Source of the DNA: Hypomyces perniciosus
Lineage: Eukaryota; Ascomycota; Sordariomycetes; Hypocreales; Hypocreaceae
Direction: 5' to 3'
Length of the DNA: 64,000 nt
NCBI GenBank assembly: GCA_008477525.1
Contig: SPDT01000007.1
Span: 4,960,001-5,024,000, forward strand
Positions 3,574 through 17,147 of this stretch are shown here, piece by piece. The notes under the pieces are model-generated. The model searched no databases. It had not been told where the DNA came from and worked only from the letters and a program-made list of their open reading frames with translations. Position numbers and translations under genes: made by a program. Position 1 is the first letter of the stretch; each line of letters opens with the position of its first letter.

Positions 3574-6500
3574 ATGGAGCAGGAACGACTATGGGACGAG
3601 GCATACAACAGCCTAAAGGACGATGACCCAAAATTGGTGGCACAGTACGAAGCTATCCTATCTCTAGAAATTGAGAAGGAGACTTCGATTCCAGGTGCCC
3701 CGGGGGTTGTTGGAAACGCCATCAGCCAGGACGACCCGAAAGCCAGATGGCTTCAGATGCGTTCCATTATGGATAAGTGGTTGGACAGTGCGGACAACGC
3801 CTATTCTGGCCAGTTCCCAGAACCATTGAAAGATGCTGTGCAAAAGTCGGTGCAAACTGCACCAGCAGCTGTACTAGCTTGGACTTGTATGTATCGCGCT
3901 TCACAGGTGAGACAAGAAAGTCACTACGTTGAACGAATGAGGATTGCTAACCGGACATCAGGTGCTCTTGAACCCACGTCTCAATGAGAAAGCCGCTTGC
4001 TCTGGAGTCATCCATATTATCAGCAAGATGGATTGGTACACCCGTCTGCCAAGGCTTTTGATTCGGGACGGTGTAAATGGTCCTCCGGAAGAGGAGCATT
4101 TTCTGAGAGGACGAGTCGTCGACCTATACAAGGCTATTTTCTCGTACGGAATGAAAGCCATATGCTTCCACGCGGACAACTTGTCTCCTGGCGTGCTCAA
4201 TGAGAATTCCATAGTCAAGGACTGGGATGCATGCACAGAGCCATTGACCGAAGCAGAGTACAATCTCTCGCTGTTCAACGGACATCTCGTCAAAAAGCAA
4301 CTCGATGAGATGATGAACATCCCCCGTTTGAAGGCTTGTCAGGGGGCTCACCTGACCAGTGATCTCTATCGATGGGCCCTTTCGAAAAAAGAGTACACGA
4401 AGACGATCAATTGGGCTGAAGAAGGCAGTCAAGTCCTCATGATCAGTGGAGTTCCAGGCAGCGGCAAGACATTACTTCTGGAAGAAATCGTGCGGCAACT
4501 CGCAGTCCAACCAAATCCAGAAGGCAGGGGGGTTTCTTGGTCGCTGGCCTCTTCGTTCTGTGGCCGGAATAACGATGAAGTATACAACTCTACGACAGTG
4601 CTGCGAAGCTTGGTAAAAACGCTTTTCGTACAACAGCCGAGACTAAAGTATCATTGGCGAGAAGCCCGGCGGTCCACCAAAAGGAGTGACTTCAACAACA
4701 CAGCCGATTTCTTTGCTCTGTCAACCATTTTCTTCAAGATGTTGAAAGACGAGTGTTTCGTGAGAACATACCTTGTGATAGATGGTATCGACGAATGCGA
4801 TACGGGCGATGATAGGAGAGACCTCGACGATTTATTGCTCTTGATCAAGAACGCAGTAAAAGTATCATCAAAGCTCAGGTGTATTGTGTCCACAACTCTT
4901 AATGCGCGCATCAAACAGGAGCTGGAGCAAGAGGAGAAATACTACCATTTGAGCCTCGATTCTGACTCCGCAGACCAGCTCGCAACAGCCGTTCGTAACA
5001 TCATCACCTACAGGGTTTCTGATCTGGCCAAGCAAAAGGGGAAAAAGCTGGAAACTGAAATTGCAGATGTCATCCTCGAAAAGTCGCGAGGCAACTTCTC
5101 ATGGGCAACTATGGCCTGTGACGCTCTGCTCAAGGAAGAAAAACGGTATCCCCTTGAGGCGCTCAATGAGATGCCAGAAGGATTGGACCAGCTGTACAGC
5201 CATGCGTGGAACTGTGCCACAACTGCGACACTTCCCCGTCGAGATCAAGAATACAGTTACAGGTTCCTTTCAACCACAGCTATTGTCTACAGTCCGCTTC
5301 ATGTATCAGAGTTGGCAAATCTTGCCGGACTACCACCAAGGGTCGACCCGACGGCGATAGTCAAGAAGTGCTATCCGTTTCTCGAAGTTCGAAACGACAT
5401 GGTTTATTTTGTCAATCGGCAAGCTAAACTGTATGTGAGAAAGCACTTGAGCGAATCGCTTTCACAGTTACACTCTGATCTTACTCTGCACATGCTTTCC
5501 ATGGTTTTGAAGGAAAGCACCGACAGGAGTGGGCAAGTTGCTCCTGTTAGTTATGCGACCCTTCACTGGATGAATCACCTTGCTGAGGTGAATAATATCG
5601 ATGATGATACAGAAGCATCAGAATCTATCATCTCTTTTCTCGATGGATCCCTGATGCAGTGGCTGGCTTTCGTACACTCTGCTGGCCTTCTATCGGATGC
5701 AGCGAACCGGATGCGCAACCTCAAGGCTTTGTTGATTGTAAGCAACCTAAAGTGGATAATAGAGGCGACGCATGGGTTACTTACTGACTTGACTTTTAGA
5801 CAAAGTTGGATGCCAACAGTCTTCTATCACATATTCAAGACGCAGAGCGAATTCTTCATCTATACATATCCGCGAACGGCGAATACATCCACCCTCTGTT
5901 CTTCCCGAAGGAAAGCTCGATGAACAGAAAGTGGAGAGAGGCTCATCCTTGGTTAATAACACCACCGACGATCCCAGAACGTTGTGATCGTGACTTCCAG
6001 GTTATCAGGGGCCACGATGGTCTCATTCGAGCCATAGCGTTCTCTCCAGATGGCAGATTTTTGGCGTCAGGATCTGATGACAGTACTATCTGCATCTGGG
6101 ATGTCGAAACGGCAACGATACAGCGGACTTTTAATGACCACGATAGACATATATATGACTTGGCCTGGTCCTGCGATGGTCTACTGGCTTCGGCGTCAAG
6201 TGACGAAACTGTCAAAATCTGGGACTGCACCACGGGCTGTTTGCGCGAGACAATTCCAAATCAAAAGTTGACAGCAAGAGCAATAAGTTTCTCGCCAGAT
6301 AGCAAGAAATTGGCGGTCTGCACAGACGAGACACTGCGAGTCTGGGATCTTTCCAACCTTGAGGCTGCAAATGTGCAAGAGTTCTGTGGACACAAAGACT
6401 CTGTCTATTCTGTCGATTTCTCGCCAGATGGAATGAGGATAGTCTCTGCAGGAGATGACCATAAAATAATCATCTGGAATGCAGACACCAGCGAGCCAAT

Positions 6501-7878
6501 TCAAACACTCGTGGGTCATGAGGGCCCCGTCAACTCCGTAGCCTTTTCGCCAGACGGGCTGCGCATTGCTTCAGGTTCCGATGACGAGACCGTCCGGATT
6601 TGGTCCGCAGAAACCGGAGAGAGTCTGAAAATCTTGGGCAAGGCCATCGACCGCGTTTTCAGCGTCGCATTCTCGTCGGATGGATCACACCTGGCCTCGG
6701 GATCCGGAGATGAGGCTGTCAGGGTCTGGGGCATGGCTACTGGAGAGCTGAAAAGCGTGCTAAAGGGACATGAGTCTTGTGTTAGGGAGGTTGCCTTCTC
6801 ACCTCGAGGAAATTGTCTGGCATCAGTATCCGATGACCGCACCATCCGATTCTGGGACATCGCAAGCAGCGTGGCTGAAGATAGCAACATCACAGGAATA
6901 CCCATTCAAAACCGTCGTGTCTACTTCGTGGCCATGTCATCTGACGGACGACATGTTGCGTCAGCCTCTTATAACACAATCTGCCTCTGGGATGGAATGA
7001 CGGGTAAACCAGCGGAGCATCACATGCTCTCCGGCCACAGTGGTTTTGTGAACTCCGTTATGTTCTCGCCCGACGGGGAACGTCTCGTTTCGACTGCGGC
7101 TGACCAATCTGTACGACTCTGGGACACAGCCAGCGGGGCCATGCTTCGCTGCTTTGAGGGTCACAGCGAGTGGGTTGGGTTCGCAGTGTTCTCGCCTGAT
7201 GGACAGTACGTGGCCTCGGCATCCCACGACGAGACTGTTCGGATCTGGGACTGCAAAGAGAACGGTGAGGAGGAGAAGACGGTGAGGATTCTAGAGGCCC
7301 ACGATTATGTCCAAGCTGTCACGTTCTCTCCCGATGGGAAGCTTCTGGCTTCAGGGGGTGATGATTCCACGGTGCGAGTATGGGACACTACGTCGTGGGA
7401 ACTGAAGTATGAGATACAAGCTCACGCCACAGGTGTCAGGCGAGTAGTTTTCTCACCAGACTCCGCCCGAATAGTATCACGTTCACAAGACCAAATAGTG
7501 TGGGTTTGCGACGCCCAGACGGGAGCCACCGTGCAGGGGCCTATCGAGACAGATAAAGCGTTCCGCGTCGTGGCCTTCGATTCGAGATGGCCCGAATATA
7601 TGCTGACCGAGTTTGGGATCGACTCGCGCAGCTCGTTCTATTCTTCTTCCTTTTTCAGCCGCGAGTCTTTGAGGCAGAACCATTACGGCATATCGGCCGA
7701 CAATCGCTGGATCACCTGGAATGACAGAAATGTAATTCCTATACTGGATAGATACCAAGCCACTGCATCGTGGGTGCAAGGACACGAGGTGGTTATTGGG
7801 ACTGAGCTTGGTGAGGTTCTGCTGTTTCGATTTTCGAAGGAAGTTGAACTACCTACCCAGAATGGTGGTGGCCTTTAG
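3574..7878 (+). CDS. NLR-like receptor: NACHT_N domain, NACHT NTPase, 12 WD40 repeats
   Basis: Exons are 3574-3906, 3962-5737 and 5800-7878 (1395 aa from this ATG). Intron 1 has the branch GCTAAC and intron 2 ends CTTGACTTTTAG. Residues 1-160 (LWDEAYNSLK, LLNPRLNEKA, SKMDWY) match the N-terminal helical domain of fungal NACHT proteins. The P-loop GVPGSGKT is at about 273-280 and the Walker B-like VIDGIDECD at about 385. Twelve WD40 units fill about 770-1320, most ending in IWD or VWD. Proteins of this class are STAND NTPases acting in non-self recognition and heterokaryon incompatibility, where ligand binding to the repeats opens the NTPase. The WD40 units are clearly diverged from each other, unlike the near-identical repeats of HET-E/HNWD proteins. 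The start is uncertain: the frame is open upstream to 3376, so an upstream first exon is possible. The ligand is unknown. Confidence 0.88.
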
Positions 7879-12358: not shown

Positions 12359-13444
12359 TTACTTCCTCCGGTTCTGGTTCAGCATCAGAATCTGGACCAT
12401 CCGGATGAAAATGTTCAAGAAGTCGAGCTCCAAGGAAATACTTTCATTGACAGGGTCTCGCTTAATCACGCCGGCCTGAGCAAGACGGGCGTGGTGTAGA
12501 ACCTTCTGGACGTCGTAGAGGGTGAAACCGCCAAAGACTGCCAGACCACCGTACAACCAGATGTTCTGAGTGAAAGCGAGCGTTCGGGCAGCGGTGGCAG
12601 GAATGACAAGAGGGGCAAGTCCGGAAGCGGCGACAATGGCGGCACCGGCCAAGAGAGGGCCACCAATATAGAGGTACTTCTCCTGCTTAGCAGTGGCACC
12701 GACGACGGACAGAGCTCCCATCATCGCGACAGTGTAAAGACCGGCACGAGCAAGTAGAGGGCCGGGGACAAAAGCGAGGAGAGGGGCGACGAACGCAGCT
12801 TGAGTGACGTTGAAGGCGGTCCAGAGAGCGTACTTGGGAACGTAGCTGCTTCAATGTTAGCACATGGCGCCTAGTTTTATCTTCCAGGACTCCTGTCCAA
12901 CTTACTTGTCAGGGCTGATAGATCGAGTTCCAATCATGGTTGCAAAGCTCAGTGCAAGGCCACCAATTCCAACAACCCACGGGTTCGTCACCATCAACCG
13001 GTACACAAAACCCGTCTGCACCATTTGCCGCGCCGTCAAACCAATGATACCAACACCAAGACCAGTATGCAAGAAGGTGTTGTTCAGGTACTCGCGCTCA
13101 AACAGCGGCATGCCGCCATCCTCCCTCGTCTCCCGGTTGAAGACCGCATTAATCGCCACCAGAGTGCCGCCGAAGATGGCGCCGCCGATCAACAGCCTGC
13201 GCACTCCTGTTCCAGAAGCCGCCTGCTGCTGGCCCGCAGCCTCCTGGTAGTACGATCGTGCGCTGCTGCGAGCAAAAGCATTGCGAGTCGTGGCCGATGA
13301 GATGCGTGATGTGAAGAAGGTTGCGCTCGGTTTTGACACACGGTGGAAGCTGCGCGCGGGTGCTCGGAATGCAGATTTCGAAAGCTCAGGTAACCGCTGC
13401 GCCAGGCGCGCAGGGCCCTGCCGAATACTAAGTGTAAACGACAT
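12359..13444 (-). CDS. Mitochondrial Bax-inhibitor-1 family protein (GHITM/MICS1-like)
   Basis: Exons 13444-12906 and 12845-12359 give 341 aa; the intron has donor GTAAGT. The first 65 residues are rich in Arg, Ser and Ala with no acidic cluster, a mitochondrial targeting pattern, followed by SYYQEAAG. About seven hydrophobic segments follow, including RRLLIGGAIFGGTLVAINAV, LALSFATMIGT and YIGGPLLAGAAIVAA. The C-terminal part, IWLYGGLAVFGGFTLYDVQK then DPVNESISLELDFLNIFIRM, is the BI-1/TMBIM signature with its conserved Asp. The animal homologue GHITM/MICS1 (TMBIM5) sits in the inner mitochondrial membrane and affects cristae and cation/proton exchange; transferring that role to this fungal protein is inference. 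Confidence 0.88.
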
Positions 13445-14174: not shown

Positions 14175-17147
14175 TCATCTCAATCCGTCAACTCCCTTTT
14201 CAATAATAAACTTAACAGGCTGTCTTGCCCTCCTGCCCAAAATCCCAACACCAGATAATGGAAAGAATTTCGGCGTCGTAAGCATTGCCACGCTCATCGT
14301 CTTTGGTGCTGGCATTTCCCTTAGACCATTGTCGAAAGTTGCCGTCTGCCAACTGTTGCTCGAAACATCAGGCTTCTTCTTTCGGCTATCAAACCCCCAT
14401 TTTACAATGTTGCCGGCACGGAGCCATCCCTGTAGGTTACGACACTGACTCACGTCTACCCAGTTGAGTCGCCCACAACCTCTCAGGATGTATTCAAGGC
14501 CCTTCCCTGTGACACGGACACACCCACGAACACTGAGACCTTCGAGCTCATTAAGGTGAAGGGCCACGCTCTCCAGGCTACCGTCACTAACAGCGCTTCC
14601 ACAAAATGCCAACCTTAGTTCTCGTAGTTTCGGAAGACCCAAAGCAACAACTTCAGTTGCTGTATCAGAAAGGGCGCAGCAGAATGACAAGTCCAAGCTG
14701 ATGAGGTTTTTCGCTGCATTCACAAGGGCCACGATGGCATTATCGGACAAATAAGTACAATCTGCTAGGCAAAGGTGCGTCAACTTCTCGAATTTGTACT
14801 GAGCCCATGATTGAAATCCTGCATCTGTAATGGAGGTGCAGCGAGTTAGAGAAAGAGACTGCAGACGATTTGAGGCGTGAGCAGCGAGGTGGGCCATCGA
14901 GCGATCCGTAATGTGCTTGCAGTACGAGAGGTTCAACGAGTTCAGTTTCGGACATCCGATGACGGTACCGGGTGCTGGCATATTCTGAGCAGCTTGTTGA
15001 GCTTTCTCTCTAGCTTTCGCTGAGGAGGTTGATATGACAACTTTGGTATGTGTTGGCGGAGGCTCTGGAACGACCCATCCAACAACCCGGCCCAGCAAAT
15101 TATCGCCAACTTTCCGGCAATTGCTCCAGTCCACCTCTTGCAGTCCCTTGGCGTTTTCGCTCATCTCAAGGATCTGGTTTGCCGATACGTCCCAAAGGGA
15201 ACGCATCTTCCATCTTTGCACATTCTTGCCGCAAGTGCGCCACAACACAGAAAACCCTTCATCGGTAATGTGGAAGCAATTGTTCAAATCAATAATCACG
15301 GCGCGGGTTCCAATGAAAGGCGCAAGAGTTTGGAGGACTTGGTCGGTAACTTTGCGGTTGTAATAGGAGAGATCAACATAATTGCAAACTTTGGGGGATG
15401 TGGTTAAGAGTCGACGCCAATGACCATTAACAAGGCGCAGTTTGAGGAGCTCTCCTAAGTCAGCATACTGAAATATGCGTATTAATATATCATCTGAGAG
15501 TAGTACCTTTTGTAGAGCGTGTGGTCGGCAAGGAAGTATCTTCGCTCGTTTAGCAGGTACATCGAATTCGAAGTCCGTGATGGAAAACGTAACAGGAGGT
15601 ACATCTGCCAATGGAGACCGAAGTCCGCTCCATCGAGTAGATGTTGAACTTTCAACTGGAGTAGTTGGCGCCGTCGGCGTAGTTGGCGTAGTTGGTGGTG
15701 CTATCGATTGGCGCCGTCGATTTCTCAAGTTTTCCATATCCACGCTCAAGAACGGATCAGGGTCCTTTGGCTCCATGACTTCTGAGTCGTCCTTGTTTGG
15801 AGAGGTCGCTTTTGACGGGGTTGTAAAGGGTATGTTTGGTAAAACCAGTCTGGCAGGGGTTGGAGGGTCTGATTTGCTGGTCCGCTCTCTCTGATCTGCA
15901 TCAGCCATATCAACGTCGTCCTCCCGGCTAGTGTAGCGATTCCATGCCGTCTGCTCCACCTGAGATTTAATATCTGTAGGACATCGCGCCCACAGTTCAT
16001 CCATGGTCTTTCCAGGGATCATCAAACATTCGACCGTGGTGATTGATCTCACTGTGGCAGTTCGACCAGGAGATAAGCCTAAACTTGCTACCTCGCCAAA
16101 ATATTGGCCAGCTTTCAACCGTGGCCTTTTTTGCATAGATTTAGTCAAGTTCTGAGCATTCTCCTCGGTATTGGGCTGCTGGTGGATAACTTCAGCTTCC
16201 CCCCGTACAATGAAGAAAATTTCATTGCCAGGACTGCCCTGCCGAATGATGTCGTTGAACGGGGGGTAAGTCTTTGGCTGTACGCTCAAGCCCAGAAAGT
16301 GCAGGATATCAGGGTGCAGTGTAGAGAAGAGAGGTAGCTCCTTGAGGGTCTGTCGTATATTGACAAAACCGCTGCCCAAGGCACTACCTGCGGCAGGGTC
16401 CTCAATGATACCAGGACTAGGCGATTTGCGCTTCTTAGAGTTTATCACCGTACCATCTTTAATGGCACCGCATTCCCCTGTCGATACTTCTCCTGGTGTA
16501 GCCGTCCGGGTAACAAATTCGCACTTAGGGGATTTCAGGGTTGCGCCACTTTCTTGTCGTTTCTTCTTGAGCAAGTTGAGTCTCTCCTGTGCTTCATGTC
16601 GGATCGCCTTCTCCATATCCGGAAACCTTGGCATGACCGTCTGCAGGTCTTCTTTCTTCAAGACAAGCAGGAGGCATTTCGTTCGAGCTACAATGGTAGC
16701 AGTCCGTGGCATGTCCATGAGAACACCAATCTCTCCAAAGAATGCGCCAGCTTTCAGTTCGGCGTAAACAGCCTCGCCGTCACGGGATGTGACGGCCACT
16801 ACTCCTCGCACCAGCCAGTACATGGCCTTTGCGTCATCTCCTTCAGTGATGATGTGGTCGTTAGGTCCGTGTACCTGCGGCTTCAGGTGGTTCCCAATGG
16901 CCACCAAAAACTCCTCTGAAGCTGATAGAAACAGGGGAAATGTCCTTATACGATCGACCAAGTCCAACGGCATGTCCCTAATCGTTGAGGCCGTAAGCGG
17001 GGACGGTCGCATGGGCCGCGTCGGGTTGGTTTCCACATTGAAGGAGCGGATGAGCGAGATGGGGTCAGATCCGGTAGAATTGGCTTGTTGGTGGTGTGCC
17101 AGCGCCCGATAGTGCGAGGGCGCACTCGGAGATCGATTGCGTCTCAT
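14175..17147 (-). CDS. Two cyclic-nucleotide-binding domains + F-box + leucine-rich repeats
   Basis: A single exon of 990 aa. The frame is open six codons further upstream, but the first ATG is at 17147. Cyclic nucleotide-binding domain 1 spans about 70-180 with the phosphate-binding cassette FGEIGVL..PRTAT (137-151). Domain 2 spans about 270-395 with FGEVASL....GRTAT (350-365). Both cassettes keep the Glu and Arg that contact cyclic phosphate and ribose in PKA and CAP, so both could bind ligand. A basic stretch SKKRKSP (about 237) may be a nuclear signal. A Pro/Thr-rich linker leads to an F-box at about 548-590 (LLSDDILIRIFQYADLGELL) and AMN1/Skp2-type leucine-rich repeats to about 930 (repeated LNLSYC, LSLTRC, LDLSFC). 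By its parts it is an SCF substrate receptor sensing cAMP or cGMP; that is inference. There is no kinase or PKA inhibitor site. Confidence 0.9.
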   Translation of the reverse strand: MRRNRSPSAPSHYRALAHHQQANSTGSDPISLIRSFNVETNPTRPMRPSPLTASTIRDMPLDLVDRIRTFPLFLSASEEFLVAIGNHLKPQVHGPNDHIITEGDDAKAMYWLVRGVVAVTSRDGEAVYAELKAGAFFGEIGVLMDMPRTATIVARTKCLLLVLKKEDLQTVMPRFPDMEKAIRHEAQERLNLLKKKRQESGATLKSPKCEFVTRTATPGEVSTGECGAIKDGTVINSKKRKSPSPGIIEDPAAGSALGSGFVNIRQTLKELPLFSTLHPDILHFLGLSVQPKTYPPFNDIIRQGSPGNEIFFIVRGEAEVIHQQPNTEENAQNLTKSMQKRPRLKAGQYFGEVASLGLSPGRTATVRSITTVECLMIPGKTMDELWARCPTDIKSQVEQTAWNRYTSREDDVDMADADQRERTSKSDPPTPARLVLPNIPFTTPSKATSPNKDDSEVMEPKDPDPFLSVDMENLRNRRRQSIAPPTTPTTPTAPTTPVESSTSTRWSGLRSPLADVPPVTFSITDFEFDVPAKRAKILPCRPHALQKVLLSDDILIRIFQYADLGELLKLRLVNGHWRRLLTTSPKVCNYVDLSYYNRKVTDQVLQTLAPFIGTRAVIIDLNNCFHITDEGFSVLWRTCGKNVQRWKMRSLWDVSANQILEMSENAKGLQEVDWSNCRKVGDNLLGRVVGWVVPEPPPTHTKVVISTSSAKAREKAQQAAQNMPAPGTVIGCPKLNSLNLSYCKHITDRSMAHLAAHASNRLQSLSLTRCTSITDAGFQSWAQYKFEKLTHLCLADCTYLSDNAIVALVNAAKNLISLDLSFCCALSDTATEVVALGLPKLRELRLAFCGSAVSDGSLESVALHLNELEGLSVRGCVRVTGKGLEYILRGCGRLNWVDVSQCRNLQGWLRAGNIVKWGFDSRKKKPDVSSNSWQTATFDNGLREMPAPKTMSVAMLTTPKFFPLSGVGILGRRARQPVKFIIEKGVDGLR

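Follow-up and report, generated by a model that had tools for sequence, protein, structure and literature searches.

Most effects of cyclic adenosine monophosphate (cAMP) in fungi are interpreted as effects of protein kinase A (PKA). Table 1 of the classification of cyclic-nucleotide-binding (CNB) domains by Kannan et al. 2007 (PMC2246266) also contains a family 8, 'LR_CC', of fungal and, according to the paper, metazoan proteins in which tandem CNB domains are followed by a C-terminal F-box and leucine-rich domain. The 64,000-nucleotide stretch of Hypomyces perniciosus DNA analysed here (contig SPDT01000007.1 of assembly GCA_008477525.1, positions 4,960,001 to 5,024,000; the window) encodes a protein with all of these features and the canonical GEIGVL..PRTAT cassette; an earlier note on this DNA had guessed correctly that the combination was already known, although its function has apparently gone unexplored since 2007. 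Its sequence makes the protein a good candidate for a cAMP receptor of a second kind in fungi, and we put at roughly 55% the probability that it is a substrate receptor of an SCF (Skp1-Cul1-F-box) ubiquitin ligase with its own tandem cyclic-nucleotide sensor.

Gene and domain architecture

The gene is a single intronless open reading frame (ORF) without internal stops on the reverse strand (14175..17147, with its ATG at 17147 and a stop codon ending at 14175), and its product of 990 amino acids begins at the same methionine as the consensus of 50 homologues (MRRxRSP). Its modules, all on the reverse strand, are CNB-A (residues 61-195; 16563..16967), CNB-B (residues 262-405; 15933..16364), a linker (residues 393-538; 15534..15971), an F-box (residues 550-585; 15393..15500) and leucine-rich repeats (LRRs; residues 591-905; 14433..15377, with a low-confidence break at about 699-720). 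Pfam finds cNMP_binding (PF00027) in two stretches (118 bits, cut-off 27.5), cNMPbd_u2 (PF16643) over exactly the linker (106.7 bits, cut-off 27), LRR_6 and LRR_4 above their cut-offs, and the F-box PF00646 by a narrow margin (22.1 bits against a cut-off of 20.5); the sister F-box model PF12937 falls below its cut-off (21.2 against 24.3 bits), and NCBIfam gives sub-cut-off matches only, with CRP at the top.

The protein also matches FBXL2 in sequence (85.5 bits), and a model of residues 546-989 has the F-box/LRR fold of Skp1-bound FBXL2 and FBXL17. The CNB domains were remodelled alone because the full-length model was poor there; the best Foldseek matches of this pair are the tandem CNB domains of protein kinase G (PKG) and of the PKA regulatory subunit (PKA-R). 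In another structural comparison, most of the 50 matches fall on CNB-A, and CNB-B is supported by 3cl1, 6m63 and a Bcy1 match. Thus the single ORF, Pfam and the predicted fold bear out the proposal of the earlier note that two CNB domains, an F-box and LRRs lie in one chain, and sequence and predicted fold show four modules with intact phosphate-binding cassettes in both CNB domains.

Conservation of the phosphate-binding cassettes

The cassette of CNB-A lies in FFGEIGVLMDMPRTAT (residues 136-151), with the GEIGVL..PRTAT pattern at residues 138-151 and the conserved E139 and R148 within FGEIGVLMDMPRTAT (residues 137-151; 16695..16739), and that of CNB-B in YFGEVASLGLSPGRTAT (residues 349-365), with E352 and R362 within FGEVASLGLSPGRTAT (residues 350-365; 16053..16100). 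Among 224 full-length homologues (178 close, 9 mid and 37 distant), five residues of the CNB-A cassette (Gly, Glu, Arg, Thr and Ala) are each present in all 224; in CNB-B, Glu is present in 224 and Arg in 223, the sole exception being a gap in one model. Both residues are also kept in every partial homologue that spans the respective cassette (40 for CNB-A and 54 for CNB-B); the remainder of the 120 partial homologues found with an F-box/LRR query (80 and 66, respectively) do not span it and lie outside these counts. The earlier note had read Glu and Arg as kept in both cassettes, and the sequences are as it claimed; none of the 224 full-length homologues, drawn from the best 120 matches per search, loses them while retaining the F-box and LRRs.

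The cassette Arg is directly followed by Thr, which is compatible with either cAMP or cyclic guanosine monophosphate (cGMP). The genome contains a single cyclase-domain match, which we take to be adenylate cyclase, and cAMP is therefore the more likely ligand. Seven CNB matches occur at four loci of this genome (44.0 Mb, 23 contigs), namely the window gene (two), a PKA-R-like locus with an RRTS motif (two), an Nte1-like locus (two) and a transporter-like locus (one), the last three named by reading their ORFs; only the window gene combines CNB domains with an F-box. The transporter-like ORF (L009, 1281-2921, forward strand; SulP/STAS-type by eye) has a C-terminal CNB domain in which the cassette GE and RTAT are kept, and may possibly encode a further cyclic-nucleotide sensor.

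Conservation of an RRxS motif in the linker

The sequence RRxS is a PKA-type site. The window protein has one RRxS/T motif, RRRQS, in the linker (residues 477-481; 15705..15719). A linker RRxS/T is found in 178 of 178 close, 9 of 9 mid and 34 of 37 distant homologues (221/224), compared with 14%, 21% and 16%, respectively, of shuffled linkers (50 shuffles per linker, preserving composition only). R478, R479 and S481 are each present at one aligned place in 187 of the 187 close and mid homologues; the motif reads RRRxS in the 178 close ones, and the nine mid ones have either RSRR.S or KSRR.S. In 36 of 37 distant homologues, a looser motif occurs no more than 30 residues from the F-box. The linker is otherwise variable in sequence and length, its best-kept core being DPDP..RR.S..P. 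The conservation of this motif in the linker is a feature newly described here, and the site may be phosphorylated by PKA.

Evolutionary distribution

Three protein searches were made, each scoring about 8000 candidates, and the best 120 of 1321, 287 and 154 matches, respectively, were retained. The 1321 proteins matched by the whole protein (E ≤ 1e-3) include a best 120 that are 63-80% identical to it; all of these 120 have PF00027 and PF16643, and a precomputed F-box (PF00646 or PF12937) is present in 106 and absent from 14 by manual count. When 50 homologues were rescanned at E ≤ 1e-3, a threshold applied in place of the curated cut-offs, PF00646 and PF12937 were each found in 49 and cNMPbd_u2 in 50. 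With so many homologues matched and these domains shared among the best 120, the joining of the modules in one chain is not due to chance.

The nearest named homologues among the matches listed are from Trichoderma, Cladobotryum and Escovopsis, with which the window protein groups in a tree of 37 chosen sequences (772 columns, rooted by hand on yeasts) with support 0.996, a grouping that probably places the source organism in Hypocreaceae. Sordaria also has a homologue, as do other classes of Pezizomycotina (e.g. Aspergillus, Blastomyces, Lentithecium and Brigantiaea) and the yeasts Yarrowia, Nadsonia, Yamadazyma, Millerozyma, Candida jaroonii and Lachancea. The tree broadly tracks taxonomy: 22 Pezizomycotina, four Eurotiomycetes and a group of eight that includes Yamadazyma, Millerozyma and Lachancea each have support 1.0. 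Support is low (0.13-0.55) for four inner branches, including that between the window protein and Cladobotryum and Escovopsis. Because homologues occur in both Pezizomycotina and yeasts and the tree broadly follows taxonomy, the fusion probably arose before Pezizomycotina and Saccharomycotina diverged and has been inherited since.

With the F-box/LRR piece alone as query, which finds proteins of about 0.55-1.75 times 450 amino acids, 68 of the best 120 of 287 matches have no CNB coverage. Sixty of these are on contigs shorter than 10 kb. Of the other eight, P0125 of Verticillium longisporum (contig of 246 kb) has neither CNB coverage nor the cNMPbd_u2 linker, and seven retain the linker, including P0123 (contig of 7.4 Mb). 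We read these matches as fragments or truncated gene models; a true loss of the CNB domains in a single species is possible.

COS111 of Saccharomyces cerevisiae (YBR203W) is listed as an F-box protein in the available text of two papers (PMC2198940, PMC6026702). It was not used as a counterpart, the only query being a 40-residue peptide of Candida albicans 'F-box protein COS111' (PMC5156812), which scored at most 48 in any protein and 46 in P0303, compared with a shuffled maximum of 40 (six yeast proteins). Some homologues are named 'F-box protein PpaB'; by title, the papers found with both words concern other subjects.

Proposed function and alternatives

As a cyclic-nucleotide-sensing SCF receptor, the protein would engage Skp1-Cul1 through its F-box and substrate through its LRRs. 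Binding of cAMP to CNB-A and, in most lineages, CNB-B would move the two CNB domains with respect to the F-box/LRR part or the linker and alter the exposure of the F-box or LRR surface, making access of substrate or engagement of Skp1 dependent on cAMP. A phosphate placed on the linker RRxS by PKA may add to or oppose this effect, and direct cAMP binding and PKA output would then converge on one ligase subunit. This gating of a ubiquitin ligase by a cyclic nucleotide is an inference. If the protein binds cAMP, it is a receptor to test for cAMP effects that persist in PKA mutants, and the action of cAMP on protein turnover would be direct; homologues in Yarrowia, Sordaria and Trichoderma make the question testable in tractable fungi. 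A bolder proposal, which we hold only tentatively, is that such proteins form a second, ascomycete-wide class of direct cAMP effector, a CNB-gated ligase receptor also phosphorylated by PKA at RRxS, which would couple both messenger and kinase to protein destruction.

Several observations weigh against a cAMP-gated receptor. Canonical cassette sequences are not proof of cAMP binding, and the 224 full-length homologues are related sequences, not 224 independent events. The literature searched, from which subscription journals were mostly absent, contains no functional study and no binding, Skp1, ligase or substrate data; the available text of PMC11394779, PMC4392396, PMC3482391, PMC8147800, PMC6026702, PMC5156812 and PMC2198940 describes no work on such a fusion. 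Conservation of the F-box blocks (0.61 and 0.72) is comparable to that of two CNB-B blocks (0.72 and 0.73) and below that of the CNB-A cassette block (0.96). The full-length model has a mean predicted local distance difference test score (pLDDT) of 58.8, most of the linker being below 50 and the CNB domains poor, and gives no placement of the CNB domains relative to the F-box; the CNB pair model does not superpose as a unit on known tandem CNB domains (root-mean-square deviation 14.6 to Bcy1), and its TM-scores are 0.27-0.46, apart from still lower ones where the matched chain is much longer. According to the available text of Kannan et al. (PMC2246266), allosteric coupling in PKA-R links the cassette Arg with Gly169. 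The position matched to it by eye in the beta2-beta3 loop is Gly in 222 of 224 homologues in CNB-B; in CNB-A it is Ala in 211 of 224 and Gly in 2, and coupling in CNB-A may therefore differ from that of PKA-R. The Glu-Arg spacing of the CNB-B cassette is longer in 13 of 37 distant homologues, and that cassette reads VRFADV in Lachancea, so CNB-B may be dispensable in some lineages. The 13 homologues, of which those named are yeasts, are P0265, P0269, P0272, P0273, P0276, P0280 and P0281, together with P0298, P0303, P0306, P0334, P0339 and P0340; the CNB-A cassette is unchanged in all 13.

The Ala of CNB-A and the altered CNB-B of some yeasts would suit a CNB pair that is a structural or protein-binding module unresponsive to ligand, in a constitutive FBXL-type receptor. 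This is improbable, as a structural role is not expected to hold five CNB-A cassette residues at 224/224 while the linker varies; CRP of Escherichia coli, moreover, has Ala at the matching place and binds cAMP.

We consider it similarly unlikely that the CNB pair of an SCF receptor is gated by some other small ligand, such as a purine nucleoside. The fold matches include trypanosome PKA-R structures whose titles name guanosine or inosine as the bound ligand, and CNB domains that bind other ligands are described in the available text of Kannan et al. (PMC2246266), but the cases given there go with an altered cassette, whereas here 223-224 of 224 homologues retain Glu and Arg; the title of a T. 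brucei entry names a T318R mutant, which suggests that the Arg is natively missing there, unlike in the window protein.

Least likely of all is a PKA-R-like partner whose linker RRxS docks in the catalytic site of PKA, cAMP-dependently via the CNB domains, and so brings PKA to the SCF ligase or the PKA catalytic subunit to degradation: the tandem CNB domains, their Foldseek matches, the kept RRxS and the RRTS of the PKA-R-like locus would fit, but the inhibitor motif of PKA-R is N-terminal to CNB-A, as is the inhibitor-type motif in the PKA-R-like ORFs of this genome, whereas the linker RRxS is C-terminal to CNB-B, an RRxS/T before CNB-A is found in 16 of 224 homologues and not in the window protein, Pfam gives no dimerisation/docking domain match in it at E ≤ 1, and an ordinary PKA substrate site explains RRxS equally well.

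Other features and neighbouring genes

Between the CNB domains of the window protein, a basic stretch, KKRKSPSPG (residues 238-246; 16410..16436, reverse strand), may resemble a nuclear localisation signal; a KRK-type motif is present there in 186 of 187 close and mid homologues and in 3 of 37 distant ones. The C-terminal tail (residues 906-990; 14178..14432, reverse strand) is weakly conserved except at its end (block conservation 0.39 for residues 931-960, and 0.62 for both 901-930 and 961-990). The repeats around the gene are unremarkable.

A Bax1-I gene adjoins the window gene (12359-13444, reverse strand), and 12 of the best 120 of 1321 homologues are annotated with Bax1-I (PF01027) in the same protein; in P0006, P0021 and P0030 the homologue runs on into a Bax-inhibitor-like protein. 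In the window, an in-frame GT and CAG were found by eye 799 bases apart (14216-13418, reverse strand). The joint models are probably artefacts of gene prediction that recur because the order of the two genes is kept. At 3944-7878 (forward strand), a NACHT NTPase ORF (3944-5923) is followed by an overlapping WD40-repeat ORF in another frame (5806-7878), which looks like a fungal gene of the NLR-like (STAND) type split by an intron or a frame change.

Comparison with known systems

FBXL2 and FBXL17 share the F-box and LRR fold of the window protein, which does not imply shared substrates, and to our knowledge have no CNB domains. PKA-R (Bcy1) likewise has tandem CNB domains with canonical cassettes; the window protein has an F-box and LRRs in place of a docking domain detectable by Pfam and an N-terminal inhibitor site, and its cassette Arg is followed by Thr instead of Ala. 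PF16643, the family matched by the linker after CNB-B, is labelled unstructured by Pfam, but the core of the linker is conserved here. SCF receptors fused to a sensor or set by a ligand include FBXL5 (hemerythrin), ZTL/FKF1 (LOV) and TIR1 (auxin), with other sensor folds and ligands, and are comparable by analogy only; TIR1 has been linked to adenylate cyclase, according to the available text of one report (PMC11394779). The closest described system is LR_CC, whose cassette consensus, GEIGVLLDPPRTATVRA, is near that of CNB-A; the available text of Kannan et al. (PMC2246266) offers a classification of this family, to which the present analysis adds the linker RRxS, the cassette counts and the spread among yeasts.
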